Of a stretch of 64,000 nt of DNA, positions 15,574 through 47,581 are shown one piece after another. A program made the translations under genes and the position numbers. The DNA comes from Neoscytalidium dimidiatum (Eukaryota > Ascomycota > Dothideomycetes > Botryosphaeriales > Botryosphaeriaceae). The stretch is taken from positions 2,790,001 to 2,854,000 of the forward strand of contig CM074703.1 of the NCBI GenBank assembly GCA_037367355.1, given 5' to 3'. Below the pieces are notes generated by a model. It had not been told where the DNA came from. It searched no databases and saw nothing but the letters and a program-made list of their open reading frames with translations. The first letter of the stretch is position 1, and each line of letters begins with the position of its first letter.

Positions 15574-18200
15574 ATGGGATCAATTCCTTCATTCCTTTCT
15601 CGTATAGGTTCTTGGGATCAGGACAGAAATGGCGGCAGTAGCGCCGACGAGGGGAAATGGGGCTTCAAGGAGCTGATACCGGGTGTCGACCCCGTTGTAG
15701 AGTAAGATTCACTAATCCAGACCTCCATCCATTAAACTGTCTAACAGATGTCAAACACGGCATCATTGCGATCTACGGGCTCAATGGCCACCGCGAAAAG
15801 ACATTCACGGCTGATAATGGCGTCCCGTGGCTCAGAGACCTGCTACCCAAAGAAGTCCCTCATGCAAGGATCTTGACATAAGATTATGACTCGCGGACAC
15901 ATGGCACAAGAGAAGATGAAGTGTCAAAACAGACTCTCAATGAACACGGGATCAAGTTGCTTTAAGCATTATACCTGATACGTGAGAAGACAAAGGTATT
16001 ACGTTCTATGACATACGGTAGTCTCCGAAGTGACATGATCTATAGCCGGCTCACAGACCTATCATATTTGTGGCACATAGCCTTGGCGGGATTATTCTTA
16101 AGACTGTATTTGATCACCTGATCCTATTCGGCGTCTTAGCTAAACTAACTTTCTCCGAGGCTCCCATCCATGCCGCGTTGACCGGCCCTACTCCCAACGA
16201 GATATATCACGGAGTGAAACCATCAACGTACGACATTATTCTTTTAGGAAATCCTCATCAAGGTGCCATTGGGATGAGTCTTGCGAGACTCGCGGCTAAC
16301 ATTGTTTCTATCTACGAAACGATAAACGATGCCGCCATAAAGCATTTGGAGCAGCATTCAGAATGGCTGAACGACCAGCTGGACCACTACAAGGCTATCA
16401 GCAACGATTTCGACACAAAATTCTGTTTCGACGCCTACGAAACTCCTCTGTTTGCTGGCCAATCGATATGGGTAAAGAGGTTGCCATCCCAGGCATGGAT
16501 GTCGTGACTAATGTGCTCTACCAGGTCATGCACCAGTGGTCTGCATGCGTACCAGGTGCAACGAATGTTGAAGTTGTAGAGCTTCAAAAAGATCATCGGA
16601 ACATTGCCCAATCCCGGACATCAGAAGATAACAACTTCATCACGACTGCCGCCTACCTCTCAATTCAAGCAGAACATGCGCCCAATAAGGTTGAGCAGAA
16701 ATGGCGTAGCTACGAACATTCTCTGTGTACATAAGAAACGAGTTAATCATTCATTGTAGCATTCGTCAATTTCCTTAGCTTTCCCACAAAAGGAAATTAG
16801 CAAGCGACCGTCCCAAGACACAATTCAAAATTTGCTCACAAATGAGGCTGGATATTTCATTCGTAGGGAGCGCCGACCCTCTGAAAGCTCTTGATCATAT
16901 ATTGACCTCACAAAAAGCTGCCTTGCATGCCTTCGCTACCATCGTTGAAGCAACGCTCATCAAGAACGAACATGACTAAAAAGAATGAGCAATGGACTCT
17001 TGGGAGGAAGTGCATAACCCGTCTCGTCAAACCCTCGGAATGGATAGTGAAGCTTTCACAAAATCACGAAGAGCTGCGAAAGTATACACCTCTTTGGAAC
17101 AATCGTGCACTCCTTCATCAGGTCCATGGATTGTGTTCAGAGGCGTCTTTGTTTTACGAACGTGCACTTGAAAGCCAGGTGGCCGTCCTTGGTAACGAAG
17201 ATCTGGAGACAGTACGGACCAAGCTCGGGCTTGCGAAATTGCATCGACTGTTGGATCGAAATGACCTTGCAGAGTCCTCTTTACAATGTATGTTTCCGCG
17301 TATTCGCCCTTGAGCTGGGTTCGGATGCCCTGGAGACAACTCAGGCTGTGTCGGGGCTTGGCATCGTGGGGTGGAGGCAAGGCCGTCTCTCGGAAGCCAA
17401 ATCACTGCTAGAGCGCGCGATTCGTGGCTATAGAAGTCATCTAGGACCAGCTCATCCAGAAACGCTCGTGGCTATAGAGGCTCTCGGTCTAGGGTACAAA
17501 GAGCTCGCGGAGTACAACCAGGCTAGGAACCTCATCAAGGAAGCTCTCGATCACGATACGGAGAGATTCGGTCCGGAGCATCCAGCAACCGTGCGTAACA
17601 TGCAAAACTTGGCCCTCTGTCTCATCAAATTGAAACATTTGACTGAGGCCGCGACGGTTCAGCAGAGGGTTCTCCAGATCGGAGAGCGACAGCTGGGCTC
17701 ACTCCATCCAACAATTCTCCGAGCACTGCATAATATGGCGTACATTTACTTTTTGCAAGAAAAGCACGCCGAAGCGCAGCCGCTTTGCAAAGTCGCCATC
17801 ACAAGTCGGGAGAAAATACTGGGGAAAGACAACCTGGAGACCTTCGGATCCGTCGAACTTCTTGCGGCCATCTACTTCAGCCAAGAAAAGAACGATGATA
17901 ATGTGCAAAAACATCCTAAGAAGAGCCATCGAGAGCTTCCGAGCGCAGAATAGCGGATCATCTGTTGGCATACTACAGCTTTTCCGGGCTCTGGATTGGC
18001 TGGCCCAGGTTTGCAAAGCGCGGGGTGATTACACACAGGCTATTAGTCACTTTAAGGAGGCACTGGAAGGGCATCTTCGGATTCTGGGGCCGGCGCATCC
18101 TAAAACGCGAAAGAATCTTCAGTGTTTACAAGAAGTGGTTATAAATTACGGAGATGCAAGAGAGGCGGAAGATTTGAGACCGAGATTTGATGTAGCATGA
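15574..18200 (+). pseudogene. Broken NLR-type gene: hydrolase domain plus TPRs, NB-ARC lost
   Basis: The reading starts at ATG 15574 (MGSIPSFLSRIGSW) and matches the N-terminal alpha/beta-hydrolase module of many fungal NLRs: GIIAIYGLNGHREKTFT, then FVAHSLGGIILK with its GxSxG-like nucleophile, then GNPHQGAIG and KDHRNIA. Two introns look intact (15996-16045 and 16472-16524). Damage is extensive: stops at 15879-15881 (where TYGYDS is expected) and 15963-15965, a lost donor near 15703, more stops around 16735-16985, and frameshifts near 17280 and 17900. No P-loop or other NB-ARC motif is present between 16735 and 16930; the sequence jumps to tetratricopeptide repeats of about 42 residues (17100-18190; for example LGPAHPETLVAIEALG). 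The TPR part is long and little decayed, so inactivation may be recent. Intact relatives sense non-self and trigger cell death. Confidence 0.8.
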
Positions 18201-18586: not shown

Positions 18587-20272
18587 TCAACCAATCAAAA
18601 ACTCCGCCCACCTCCTCGCCTCGTCGCCCCTACCATACTCTAGCAGCAGCTCCTCCACATTCCATCCTACCCACAGCAGATCCTCCCAGCTACCTCCTAC
18701 TCCATCCTCCACGCCGCGCCGCAGCGCTTCCGCGACCGTCGCCCCCATGCCGTTCTTGACACCACAAAAGCTGCCCCGCGCACCAACAAATTTCTCCAAA
18801 ATCACCCTGCCTAATTTATGCAGTATTCCTGCAGAGAGCATATGCAAGCACGTGTCGCCATCGTCGTCCTGCGCGTTGACGTTGTAACCGGAATCAATAA
18901 GGAGCTCGAGGGCGCGGCCAGCCGAGCTGGCGAGCGCCTCGTCGGACTCGTACCGGAGCATCTGGTATTCCTGGACGGTATCGATGGCGCATTGGTGCAG
19001 GATGGTACGGCCGTGCCGGTGGCGCTGGTCCAGGGGGAGTTCGGCGAGGGCGGACTGGATGGTCGGGAGCGTTTTCTGCAAAAAGGGTGTTAGTTGGTCC
19101 GTGATTTGGGAATATCTGGTGGAGGTCGTTGTTCTGGCAACGGGCTTACCCAAAGAGAGCAGTCTGGCTGGCGGAAGATCCAGAACACGGGGTCCGGCCC
19201 GCGGAGCATGGCGTTGCAGAGATCGGCGCCGGCGAACAAGAGCTGGGCCATGATTTCTCTGTCCTCCGGCTGCCATGTGTCCCCGAAGTTCTTGTCCATT
19301 ATGATTGAGAGGGGAGAGGCAAATGGCGCGATGTCTTTGCTGTAGGTGTTGTTCGGCTCCAGGGATTCAAGTTCAGCGCCGCTTTCGATGAGGAATTGGC
19401 ATATTGCTGGCTGAGAATGATATACAGACACCTGGTTTGGGTCAGCGAAGTGCTGTTAGCGAATGGGTAGGTATATCTCACCCCGAGTAGAGAATGTCCT
19501 TCTGGCGTACAGTCTCTAAGCCCTGTAGTACCAGTTTTGATCAAGGACCAGACTGTAGAGATATCGCCATCTCTTATGGCATTGAAGATTCTCGAATCGT
19601 GCGGTAATACCCGGTATATGAATATTGCAGGTGGCAGTCGATTGGGCATCTGGACTTGCAAGATTTGCTGCATCATAGCAACGACTCTCACATGCAATCG
19701 AGCGTCATTTGGAATAAATTGCAGCCACGATAGAAGCGCTATCCCGTCTTTACTTTGCTCTGTTGCCTGGAAGTTCCGGCAAATGGTGGATATTATGACG
19801 TTGCCCTCTTCAATCATAACGCTGTACGTCAAGATCTCCTGAGTGAGCGCTATTGCACGCGCTGCAGTGGCATTATACGGCGCTTGTCGGTCTTTCCGTC
19901 AGCAAACTGGTGTTTTCGATCCACATAATTTCGAGTCTTACCTTTTTGGTTCAAAAAAACGTCGAATGCCCTTTCCATGGCGAACTGGAGCTGATTGATC
20001 AACTGTGGAGTTGTGAGGACCACGTCCTGACAATGACTACCTAGTCTACGTCCACATCCTCTCTTTCGGTGCTGAAGGCGAATGACATTGCGGCTCACTT
20101 CTTGATCCGTGCGCTTTTGGGTCTCGTCCAGTATTCGACAGCACATTTGGACCGCAGTCGCGGCGTCCGTCGAGCACACGTGACCATCTGCCGTGCCGCT
20201 TTGATTTACGAGTTTTGATGTTGCATTGAAAGGTCCGGAAGTTTGCAATGTGTTTGTTGGTTCCATATTCAT
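18587..20272 (-). CDS. Ankyrin-repeat protein
   Basis: Model: complement(join(18587..19075, 19150..19431, 19482..19882, 19942..20272)), 500 residues; introns of 59, 50 and 74 nt with canonical GT and AG ends. Degenerate ankyrin units are visible: DSRIFNAIRDGDISTVWSLI, then a unit ending CQFLIESGAELESLEP, then HGRTILHQCAIDTVQEY and ALELLIDSGYNVNAQDDDGD followed by TCLHMLSAG. The N-terminal third is not recognised; it could be a regulatory domain. Ankyrin stacks mediate protein binding, and no catalytic motif is present. It is next to the broken NLR-type gene, and such proteins often share accessory patches with fungal immune receptors, but that is context only. The start at 20272 is the first Met; a Met two codons later is equally possible. 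Confidence 0.72.
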
Positions 20273-43545: not shown

Positions 43546-46176
43546 TTAACCTCCAGAGGCAACTTCTTTTCTAAAGCAGTCCTTGCTAGTCAACGAAGAG
43601 TCAACGTCCGCAAGGGCATCCCACTTACGTTGAGCCCGAAGAACCTTAATCAGTCTGTTTCTAATCTTTACTGTGCGCTTGTGCCCTTTGCCAAATAGCA
43701 TTTCATATCCTTGTTGTACTTCGTAATATAGGGCCTCCGCGTCCTCGAATCTTCCCACACTTTCGTACGTCCATGCTAGGTTTGCAACCGCTTCGAGTGT
43801 TTCAACGTGCCGGTCCCCCAAAACTTCCTTAAATTCTTCTATAACTTCCTGGAGAAGCAACTGGGACTCTTCCCATTCCTGGCACAAGCCTAAAGCACTT
43901 GCAAGATTAATCATAACCCGGAGAGACGTCGGATGCCTACGGCCAAGTAGTCGGGTGCTGTCCTCTACGACCGCGGAAAGAAGGACTTTTGATTCGTCGC
44001 ACTTGCCTCTTTTCGCTTGCAGGAAAGCCGCAAAATTGCTCCGTATGGCCGCTATTTCAGGCAGGTGGTCATGTCCAAAGTGAGCCTCTGCCAGCTCCAC
44101 AGACTTGCGAAGGAGCTCTTCTGCCTCATCTAGCCTCCCGAGGAACTCAAGGTTAAGACCCGAAAAATGCATGGTCCAAATCACTTCACGGTCTCCTTCG
44201 CCGACTGTCTCTTGTTCATGTTTCATTAGCTCGCGTAGCAAAGGCTCCGCTTCTTCGGATGCCCCGATCGTGCCCAGAATCCAAGACAAAGATCGAATGC
44301 AACCGGAAGCGACTTCATTGTGGAAAAGGCCGCGCCCGTCACGTTTTACAAGGCTCAAAACTTTTCGACTCGCGGTCGCTGCAAGATAAAAATTTCCCTG
44401 ACTATCAGCGTAACAAGCAACCGCCGTCAAGAGCTGGGCCCAGTCTTTGAGAGCTTGTGGAGATTTTGGTGCCTCGTAGTCGACATCTACGTGTGGAAGC
44501 AATGTCTTGCAGAGCCCCCAATATTCATAAGCTGGAGTAGGAGGGAATTCTGCTGCAAGTATGTGCAGGGTGCGATATTTCCATGTTTTTGTGTCATCGT
44601 GGTCAAGCCATTTTTGAGTCGCCAATTGGACGAGAGGATGCATCTGGAAGGTAGATCCGTCAGCATCGAGGGAGATGAGAGAGAAGTTTCGAAGCATCAT
44701 AGCGTCAGCCTCAAACTCTTCTGGATCATTCCATCTTGTGTGATTGCAGGATTTATGATCTTTATAGAGTTCTGAATCTTTCTCTTGTGTTTGGGATGTC
44801 GGGCTATGATTGTTGCGGTGCCGCGAGAAATCCTCCCTCAACACCGGTTCAGCCTTCATCTGCTTCGTCTGAGGACATTGTTCCGCCGCGGCGGGGCCAA
44901 CCGCTTTAATACGTGACAGGCACCATTCTGATTCGCCGTGCTCGTAGACATAAGCATTCCGATGTTTTCGAAGTAAGAAATCGGGTATTCCTTGACAATT
45001 GAAGAAGCTCATCAGGGAAAGTAGCCGAGCAGCACTCGGCCGTGAAACTTTTATATAATCCCAAGATGTCTTCCACGTCGAGAAAATCGAATTTGATGCG
45101 GCTGTGTCGCGGCAGAGGCTTGCAGGGTCGTGCTTAAGAATTGATGGAAGAGCATTCCCACCTGTTTGAAAATGCTCCAGGTAACTAGATATCGTTCTCC
45201 ATGGCTTCCTTTGGTTGATATAAGCCGAAGCTTGCTCTATAGCCAGCGGGACAAAATCCAGAGCTTTGAGGAGCTCCAAGGCGGATTGCTCGTCTTCCGG
45301 AAGTATTTCCATCTTCTTCTGCAGCAGCGCGAGAGCAGTGCCTTGAGTCATTGGCTGCATCTCCTGCATGTCCCGCGCGCGGTGCCCGACAAGTCTGTCC
45401 GCAACTTCTCTGTACCTGGAGGTGATGAGGATTCTACCGTTAGGGGACTGAGGCAAAAATGTTGCGAGCTCCCTCTTTGGAGTCTGTATGCTCGTGCTTC
45501 CCTCTGGTTCATGTGGACGATACTGAGAAAATAAGACGGCTGGATCATCGGCGTTGTCGAGAATCAAAGTCCATCGCCCATTCTTCCCATCGACTAGCCA
45601 ATCATTCACTTGCTGAAGTACGTCCCTCTCCTCAGTGAGGTCTTCCCTCCTTGACAGTTTCAGCTGCACAGCAATATTCTTGTACGACTCTTCGAATCTC
45701 GCGACAGTGCTAGCATGTACCCAGAAGATGAACATATCCGGTGAAACCTCGCGAAGCCGATAGGAGTACTCGATTGCCAACTGTGATTTTCTGTCTCACG
45801 TTAGCCCATCTTTTCCAAACGATCAGGGGGGGGAAAAAGCGTCTCACCCAATACCACCCAAGCCTGTGAGGGCAAAGCGTGCAGCAGGCTCTGCGAGCCT
45901 TTGCTCAATCACGGACAAAAAATCGCCTTGGTTGACAAAATCCGGGTTACGGCGAAACGGGACATTCCAAAACTTCCTGGGGTCCGGTGGCGAATGCGAG
46001 GCTGCTGCACCGAGGGTTAGTAGTCACTTGCACGGTCGAGGGAAGAATGACGGACAAGGTTCTCCTTGATAATAATTGGTCACTGTGCCGCTGTTGTAGC
46101 CTAGCTGGAATCCTTGGTTGCGGCCACCGGGGAAGTCGATTCTCGGCTGCGGAGGGAGCTCTGGTGGGGTTGCCAT
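43546..46176 (-). CDS. NB-ARC-TPR receptor (NLR-like) with an N-terminal amyloid-type motif
   Basis: Model: complement(join(43546..45790, 45848..46004, 46056..46176)), 840 residues. Introns are 57 nt and 51 nt; the latter has a weak GTCCGT donor but a good CTAAC branch. Exon 1 holds a short motif, residues 20-32: NQGFQLGYNSGTV. Next, VPFRRNPDFVNQGDF is the usual lead into fungal NB-ARC domains. The NB-ARC has its P-loop at 88-95 (GLGGIGKS, completed across intron 2), Walker B (WTLILDNADD), GRILITSRY, FVPLAIEQA and an MHPLVQLA element in place of MHD. From about residue 480 the protein is built of TPRs. Such receptors oligomerise on ligand binding; the N-terminal motif would then nucleate amyloid in a partner. 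All key residues are intact. The HeLo gene lies divergently 637 bases away and carries the matching motif. Confidence 0.9.
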
Positions 46177-46813
46177 TTGGATAGGATACTCTCATCGAGC
46201 CGCGACCGCGCAGAAAGTTACAGCCTCATAGTTCAGACGGTAACGAGAGTTGAAATGATGTGTTCTTTATGAAAGGGGAAATGAACATACGTCCACGAGG
46301 CTGTGGGTGGTCGTATATGCAGCCAAGTGGTCTCGCGGATGGAGAAAAGCTGACAGGAATTGAGAGGCGCCAGCGAAGGCGGCAACCACGAATATATCTG
46401 CTGAGCCAAGGCTCTGAGCCAGCATCTAAAGGCTATGCTACGCCAGCAGGGCCGTTAACTGGCAACCTATTGCTCACTCAGCAAGCCCCATGCAGCCAAA
46501 AATAAAACAGGAGCTGTGGCGTTCTCTAACTGGCCAGGAAGCAGGCAATCGAGCCCGGATCTAGTCTTGCACGGGCACTGCCCTGCCTTCGCCTCGTCAA
46601 GATCAAGGTCAAGAGCGCTCAGTGTGGAAAGAACTACCGAGCGATTCGTCGAGGGATGCTTGACAGGCAGCTGACTACTTTTTATCTTGCGAGGCTGAAA
46701 CTCGTTGAGAAGATGGTTTCCGAAGCCTTGCCGAGCGCGACTCTCCCGCCATTAGACCACAGCCTAATCGCTCAAGGGACATAGAGCCCCAGAGAAACAC
46801 CTGAAATCTCATC
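46177..46813. promoter_or_regulatory. Shared divergent promoter of the NLR and HeLo genes
   Basis: 637 bases between the two start codons. Both promoters must lie here, so the pair could be co-regulated. No clear operator-like repeat seen. Confidence 0.55.
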
Positions 46814-47581
46814 ATGGAGCCTGCCAGCCTCGTCATCGGAGCTGCTGGGCTAGCCGCCCTCTTCAACGACGCCCTCGACTGCTTCGAATTCGTCCAGCTG
46901 GGCCGCAAATTCGGCAAAGATTTCGGGACCAGTCAGCTAAAGCTCGACAACGCGCGACTGCGGCTCTCGCGCTGGGGCGAAGCCGTCGCGATCCACAAGA
47001 ATGCCGACGACTTCCCGCCGCGGGAACTCAAGCAGGCCAGAAAGAGCATCGGGCAGATCCTCTACCTCTTCGCCGAGGCTGAAGGCGTCTCGAAGAGAGC
47101 GGCAGGCACCGAGGCGTCGGATGCGGCCTTGACTGTGTACGATCCGGATACCGACATGGGCGCGAAGATGCGGGCGCTGCACGAGCAGATGCGCAGCCTG
47201 GCTCTGGCTAGGCAGAAGCGTGCGGGCTTGTCGCAGAAGACGAAGTGGGCGTTGTACGAGAAGGGCCGGTTCAAGGAGCTCGTCGAGGATATCAATGACC
47301 TGGTGGATGACTTGGAGAAGATATTTCCAGCGAGGCAGGAAGCTCGTCGCAAACTGTGCGAAGACGAGGTCGCAGCCATGGAAGGGAAGGCTGAGCTTCC
47401 GCTCCTGAGGGATGTGGCTGCGGGACAGGACCCTTCTCTACTTGAGGCTGTGAAGAAGGCCTTGGGAGAAAAGGATGACCGATTGCTCAGGGTCGAGTTT
47501 TCGGGGCATAATAACCATGGATTCCAGCTTGGTAACAATTCTGGGACGATTAGCGGGTTTATCTTTGGAGGAAAGAATTAG
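46814..47581 (+). CDS. HET-S-type HeLo-domain protein with a C-terminal amyloid-type motif
   Basis: Single exon of 255 residues. Residues 1 to about 220 match the HeLo domain of HET-S throughout: a hydrophobic start (SLVIGAAGLAALFNDALDCF), FEFVQLGRKFGKDF, ARLRLSRWGEAV, a helix leading to LYLFAEAEGVSKRA, MRALHEQMRSLALARQKRAG, LSQKTKWALYEKGRF and VDDLEKIFPA. In the known system, HeLo inserts its N-terminal helix into membranes when a C-terminal prion domain is templated into amyloid, and the cell dies. Here there is no HET-s-type double repeat. Instead the last 25 residues carry a single motif, residues 233-246: NNHGFQLGNNSGTI, followed by SGFIFGGKN. The same motif is at the N-terminus of the divergently transcribed NLR. 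HeLo assignment is firm; the function of the tail is inference. Confidence 0.92.
   Translation: MEPASLVIGAAGLAALFNDALDCFEFVQLGRKFGKDFGTSQLKLDNARLRLSRWGEAVAIHKNADDFPPRELKQARKSIGQILYLFAEAEGVSKRAAGTEASDAALTVYDPDTDMGAKMRALHEQMRSLALARQKRAGLSQKTKWALYEKGRFKELVEDINDLVDDLEKIFPARQEARRKLCEDEVAAMEGKAELPLLRDVAAGQDPSLLEAVKKALGEKDDRLLRVEFSGHNNHGFQLGNNSGTISGFIFGGKN

Follow-up and report, generated by a model that had tools for sequence, protein, structure and literature searches.

The stretch of Neoscytalidium dimidiatum DNA considered here (the window), 64,000 nucleotides (nt) of contig C9 in a genome of 43.76 Mb and 40 contigs, carries a pair of head-to-head genes encoding a NOD-like receptor (NLR) and a protein with a HeLo domain, predicted to be a cell-death executioner, both of which contain a short amyloid-type motif. 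An earlier, preliminary description had placed this motif, with its letters, at residues 20-32 of the receptor and 234-246 of the HeLo protein, had described the two genes as divergently transcribed across 637 bases, and had recognised the receptor as NB-ARC-TPR and the executioner as HeLo; recomputation and domain searches agree with it on each of these points.

The divergent gene pair

The NLR gene occupies positions 43546..46176 of the minus strand (ATG at 46176, stop at 43546) and, in the splice model, encodes 840 amino acids (aa) in the order PP (pseudo-palindromic) motif, NB-ARC, TPR. Its three exons, 46176-46056, 46004-45848 and 45790-43546, are separated by two GT-AG introns of 51 and 57 nt, the removal of which yields a single open frame; this splicing is predicted from the nucleotide sequence, and the pattern of the homologues is kept across both junctions (VPFRR.PDFV and GLGG[IV]GKSQLAIE). 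The motif (aa 20-32, 46081..46119, minus strand), found by motif comparison and by the Pfam profile Ses_B (PF17046), includes the strict PP pattern NQGFQLGYN (aa 20-28). Ses_B covers aa 11-33 (E 6.8e-5); the match scores 23.1 bits in the protein scan, narrowly short of the cut-off of 23.2, and a passing 28.2 bits in the genome scan. It is the sole Pfam match N-terminal of NB-ARC, an NLR architecture without an N-terminal effector domain. The NB-ARC domain (PF00931, E 1e-5, 25.3 bits versus a cut-off of 23.5) spans aa 83-290, or 45199..45879 of the minus strand in exon-model coordinates, and is split by intron 2; its Walker A and B-type motifs are intact (GLGGIGKS at aa 88, LILDN at aa 168). 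The TPR sensor region, approximately aa 637-818 (43615..44160, minus strand, exon-model coordinates), is matched by TPR_10 (E 2.2e-24), TPR_12, TPR_8 and, under its cut-off, TPR_NPHP3; the receptor also matches DUF7779. A search of the genome with the receptor protein returned, besides its own gene, weak relatives only (29, 25, 24, 32, 37 and 24% identity). An NB-ARC family search gave three matches, one of them over the cut-off, and missed the receptor of the window itself; it is therefore unusable for an NLR count in this genome.

The 637 bases between the divergent start codons (46177..46813) possibly hold a promoter common to both genes. Beyond them lies the intron-free, single-exon gene of the predicted executioner (46814..47581, plus strand, 255 aa), whose HeLo domain (PF14479, E 4.5e-49) spans aa 6-198, that is 46829..47407 of the plus strand (C9:2836829-2837407 in the genome scan). 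The Ses_B match (E 3.4e-7, 30.4 bits) covers aa 229-248 (47498..47557, plus strand, genome scan), with the motif core, delimited by motif comparison, at aa 234-246 (47513-47551, plus strand) and the strict PP pattern NHGFQLGNN at aa 234-242. The executioner gave no listed match to the HeLo-like family PF17111 at E up to 10, PF14479 being matched instead. By sequence, the closest solved structures are the N-terminal domains of HET-S/HET-s (2wvo, E 1.7e-44). An AlphaFold2 model built from 37 sequences (mean predicted local distance difference test score 73) resembles 2wvn, 2wvo and 2wvq with query template modelling (TM) scores of 0.72-0.75, the 0.75 belonging to 2wvn with 40% identity. The PP core lies in the low-confidence tail of the model, between short strands at 226-230 and 243-247, and residues 1-11 are also of low confidence. 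In the alignment of the 37 sequences the effector motif extends past the 13-residue core, F229, S230, G231, N234, N242 and G244 being invariant and G248, F251 and G252 conserved at least 90% (residues 229-252). The C-terminal aromatic residue recalls the aromatic loop that follows the HET-s repeats (PMC5485727).

The HeLo fold is common to this protein and HET-s, which has been described as a HET-S form without killing activity (PMC5485727), and D22 of the executioner aligns with D23 of HET-s. On these grounds the HeLo protein could be taken for a non-lethal HET-s-like variant that now serves mainly as an allorecognition prion instead of killing downstream of the receptor. Such a variant is very unlikely here, since the HeLo domain is intact, its N-terminus is hydrophobic, and K32 stands in the place of P33 of HET-s; positions 23 and 33 are those changed in the HET-s mutant structure 2wvq, according to the title of that structure. 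Proline was found at the position of P33 in none of the 113 homologues that could be parsed (7 of the 120 listed were left unparsed), and a death-competent HeLo domain is therefore the simpler reading of the sequence.

The shared motif and its distribution in the genome

The two 13-residue blocks, NQGFQLGYNSGTV in the receptor and NHGFQLGNNSGTI in the HeLo protein, are identical at 10 of 13 positions; the preliminary description, which spoke of the same block at the N-terminus of the receptor and the C-terminus of the executioner, had given both correctly to the residue. When the receptor block is compared with every 13-mer of the window in six-frame translation, the runner-up to the HeLo block shares 5 of 13 residues, and the best matches of 200 shuffled motifs range from 5 to 8; translation of the window in all six frames gives the pattern N.G.Q.G.N at the two motif sites only. 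A short motif of biased composition invites the suspicion that two Gly/Asn-rich stretches resemble each other by chance, an explanation that is largely refuted by these counts and by the fit of both motifs to an independent curated profile, Ses_B, and that is left with next to no probability. At the DNA level 27 of 39 nucleotides are identical, and 8 of the 12 differences fall in codons that encode an identical amino acid in both copies, as with Ser, which is AGC in one and TCT in the other; since most of the differences are of this kind, the likeness argues for protein-level conservation or convergence and not for a recent DNA duplication.

Judged by its sequence, the motif of both proteins is the known PP amyloid motif, RHIM-like and of the form NxGxQxGxN, represented in Pfam by Ses_B. 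PP is defined by NxGxQxGxN in PMC9815663, its consensus is given as FxGx(x)NxGLQLxGxNxGxL in PMC3321046, and its similarity to, and partial cross-seeding with, the RHIM of mammalian necroptosis have been reported (PMC7885112). A profile search against known motif classes, as had been proposed earlier, thus matched both proteins to Ses_B, with the receptor 0.1 bit under the cut-off in the protein scan. The accompanying statement that the HET-s repeat was replaced by another motif holds insofar as there is no HET-s repeat; the replacement, which was left unnamed, belongs to an established class. A new motif class was considered and rejected, as both copies match Ses_B and fit NxGxQxGxN. The HET-s-related amyloid motif (HRAM) class has two 21-residue repeats in the effector and one in the receptor, and the pair matches Ses_B instead; neither protein matched the HET-s prion domain PF11558 at Pfam E up to 10, the presence of this model in the library being unconfirmed. 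Sigma-type motifs consist of three repeats with submotifs A/B, GxGxQFNxx and GGTQNINT (PMC3321046), and each protein of the window has one GFQLG core.

In a Ses_B scan of the 43.76-Mb genome, for which only top candidates were scored, the two genes of the pair, about 1.4 kb apart, gave the only matches over the cut-off. No third component such as the PP lipase of Chaetomium was found, the scan having returned no third Ses_B match over the cut-off. The sole further Ses_B stretch (17.4 bits, under the cut-off, in a 25-aa frame) and a pattern match, QFGHNRG, on contig C11 were also inspected, and neither reads as a PP motif. HeLo-like PF17111 was matched at six places in the genome, three of them over the cut-off. 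One other HeLo match was found, in a 726-aa frame at about 758.5-762.3 kb of contig C2 (L005 106-2286, minus strand; HeLo at aa 4-261); its long C-terminal part has no Pfam match at E 1e-3, the Ses_B genome scan reported none there, and parts of the C-terminal half look, by eye, putatively protein-kinase-like. A search for HeLo in plasmid records gave no match, which is uninformative for a fungal gene. Elsewhere in the window, a 282-aa frame with TPR_12/TPR_10 matches (17105-17953, plus strand) lies 0.6 kb from a 229-aa frame with an ankyrin match (18587-19276, minus strand); they are possibly a fragment of a further NLR-type gene, or free repeat proteins.

Homologues, linkage and motif matching in other fungi

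The search with the HeLo protein found 233 proteins, the best 120 of which were listed. Searches with the receptor found 839 proteins for residues 1-400 (120 listed) and 15 for residues 1-100 (8 of them new), making 128 distinct receptors. According to these listings, HeLo proteins with a PP motif are common among the fungi in the searched database: PF17046 is present in 113 of the 120 listed HeLo homologues, a scored PP core within the last 60 residues in 117 and the strict pattern in 106. Of the listed receptors, PF17046 is matched in 16 of the 120 from the search with residues 1-400, while a scored PP core within the first 90 residues is present in 74 of the 128 and the strict pattern in 41. 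The best listed HeLo matches come from the Botryosphaeriaceae (Neofusicoccum and Lasiodiplodia, 62% identity), the best listed receptor match from Hyaloscypha (50%).

Twelve fungi are named in both listings and, by hand reading, seven of them have HeLo and receptor matches on equally long contigs: Mytilinidion, Lophium, Clathrospora, Melanomma (15,966 bases), Pyrenochaeta sp. DS3sAY3a, Curvularia clavata and Ophiobolus (66,664 bases). Equal length strongly suggests the same contig, though not adjacency; among the matches listed, several of the seven also have additional HeLo or NLR proteins on other contigs. In P0105, a metagenome open reading frame on a 1,450-base contig, TPR repeats run directly into HeLo and PP, consistent with neighbouring collinear genes or with a gene call that fuses them. 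A different combination is seen in P0121 of Hyaloscypha variabilis (1145 aa), a single protein in which NB-ARC-TPR is combined with a stretch of the alpha/beta-hydrolase type and an internal PP motif (aa 346-365); with the hydrolase and NB-ARC matches under the Pfam cut-offs, it reads as a lipase and receptor joined in cis, with the PP motif in mid-protein.

Several observations weigh against a signalling partnership of the two proteins. The preliminary description had proposed a search for the same pair in related genomes; beside the seven fungi above, the other five (Alternaria alternata, Paraphaeosphaeria sporulosa, Zopfia, Pyrenochaeta sp. MPI-SDFR-AT-0127 and Delitschia) have no HeLo and NLR on equally long contigs among the matches listed. 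No Botryosphaeriaceae name appears among the 120 listed NLR matches, unlike the nearest HeLo matches, so that the listing does not show which receptor the nearest relatives have; the receptor and the executioner may have different recent histories. Co-variation of the motifs, which was to be looked for as well, gave no signal in a small sample comprising the pair of the window and six external same-contig pairs (n = 7): the within-pair motif identities sum to 56 versus a permuted mean of 55.7, and 2772 of 5040 permutations gave at least the observed value. With 14 of 117 foreign HeLo cores, moreover, the receptor core of the window reaches the 10/13 that it has with its own partner, and with none does it exceed this value. 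For sigma-type clusters, motifs have been described as more alike within than between pairs (PMC3321046). A weak hint of motif matching comes from the central FQL, present in both proteins of the window, in 1 of the 41 strict-pattern receptors and in 24 of the 106 HeLo tails among the matches listed.

The Ophiobolus disseminans pair P0096/P0138 was excluded from this test because N replaces the central Q in its HeLo core. The HeLo tail reads GNTGLNLGHNSG, and P0113 has the same change; the receptor carries NQGSQVGHNSG, a core type present in 8 of the 41 strict-pattern receptors. This pair is possibly decaying or re-tuned.

The absent co-variation signal in the seven pairs, and the fact that linkage alone is no proof of function, would be in keeping with PP motifs that are real but belong to two proteins without mutual signalling, the receptor driving another effector or being a relic. 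This is very unlikely, given that no other Ses_B match over the cut-off was found in the genome and that equally long contigs recur in the seven fungi among the matches listed.

Known systems and the proposed mechanism

The same combination of domains and motif was described in 2012 for Arthroderma otae and A. gypseum, in which a HeLo protein with a C-terminal PP motif adjoins an NB-ARC-TPR protein (of the signal transduction ATPases with numerous domains, STAND) with an N-terminal PP motif (Daskalov et al., PMC3321046). The pair in the window is likened to these by the published description and comes, we infer, from a different fungus. The claim that the locus holds a new variant of the system thus does not stand. 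The accompanying reading as a cell-death pair retains its receptor/executioner logic, because this is supported by the domains, the identity of the motifs and the linkage, all read directly from the DNA, and by published precedent. NB-ARC-TPR is among the receptor types reported to carry such motifs (PMC4986451); 296 receptors with the main PP motif and 37 neighbours have been counted (PMC9815663), as well as 98 PP signatures among 579 HeLo-related proteins (PMC4518210).

Likewise, PNT1/HELLP of Podospora anserina and PNT1/HELLP/SBP of Chaetomium globosum combine the PP motif, an NB-ARC-TPR receptor and an adjacent executioner (PMC7885112). Podospora PNT1 has a 54-bp intron after the motif (nt 95-148 of the open reading frame) and the receptor of the window one of 51 bp after nt 121, both in phase 1; in each gene, therefore, a small 5' exon carries the motif. 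The Podospora and Chaetomium executioner is HeLo-like (PF17111), whereas that of the window is HeLo (PF14479), and Chaetomium has an additional PP lipase, SBP, while no third PP gene over the cut-off was found in this genome. Yet another relative, NWD2/HET-S of Podospora anserina, shares with the pair the HeLo domain and the divergent orientation of adjacent genes (PMC3321046), orientation being variable among species (PMC3321046), but has a NACHT-WD receptor and a two-repeat HET-s effector motif in place of NB-ARC-TPR and a single PP motif (PMC9815663, PMC5485727). The literature search found no paper joining HeLo, NLR, Botryosphaeria and amyloid; the pair may be unreported in this species, its kind being already known.

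By analogy with PNT1/HELLP and NWD2/HET-S, the pair very probably constitutes a PP-class amyloid signalosome made up of two genes. PNT1(1-31) and HELLP(214-271) are prions that co-localise and convert each other, and PNT1/HELLP foci trigger relocation of HELLP and death (PMC7885112); for NWD2, the proposal is that its oligomerisation templates HET-S and that pore formation by the HeLo domain of HET-S follows (PMC5485727). Transferred from these systems, the course of events would be that a ligand binds the TPR region of the receptor, oligomerisation of the NB-ARC domain with ATP follows, the receptor PP motifs, now clustered, nucleate an amyloid, and this amyloid acts as a template for the PP tail of the executioner. 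The HeLo domain would then insert in the plasma membrane through its hydrophobic N-terminal segment and form a pore, with death of the cell or compartment as the outcome.

The known scheme is unchanged by this pair, which is a clean one: a single receptor and a single executioner, with no further PP gene over the cut-off found in the genome. The literature search, with subscription papers mostly outside its scope, found no experiments on a HeLo-PP pair, the PP work concerning the HeLo-like HELLP and the lipase SBP. The chances are slightly better than even that what a RHIM-like PP amyloid switches in this lineage is a HET-S-type HeLo pore-former and not a HeLo-like domain; if this is true, the pair would be a direct test case of one executioner fold driven by two amyloid folds, the HET-s beta-solenoid and the PP/RHIM fold.

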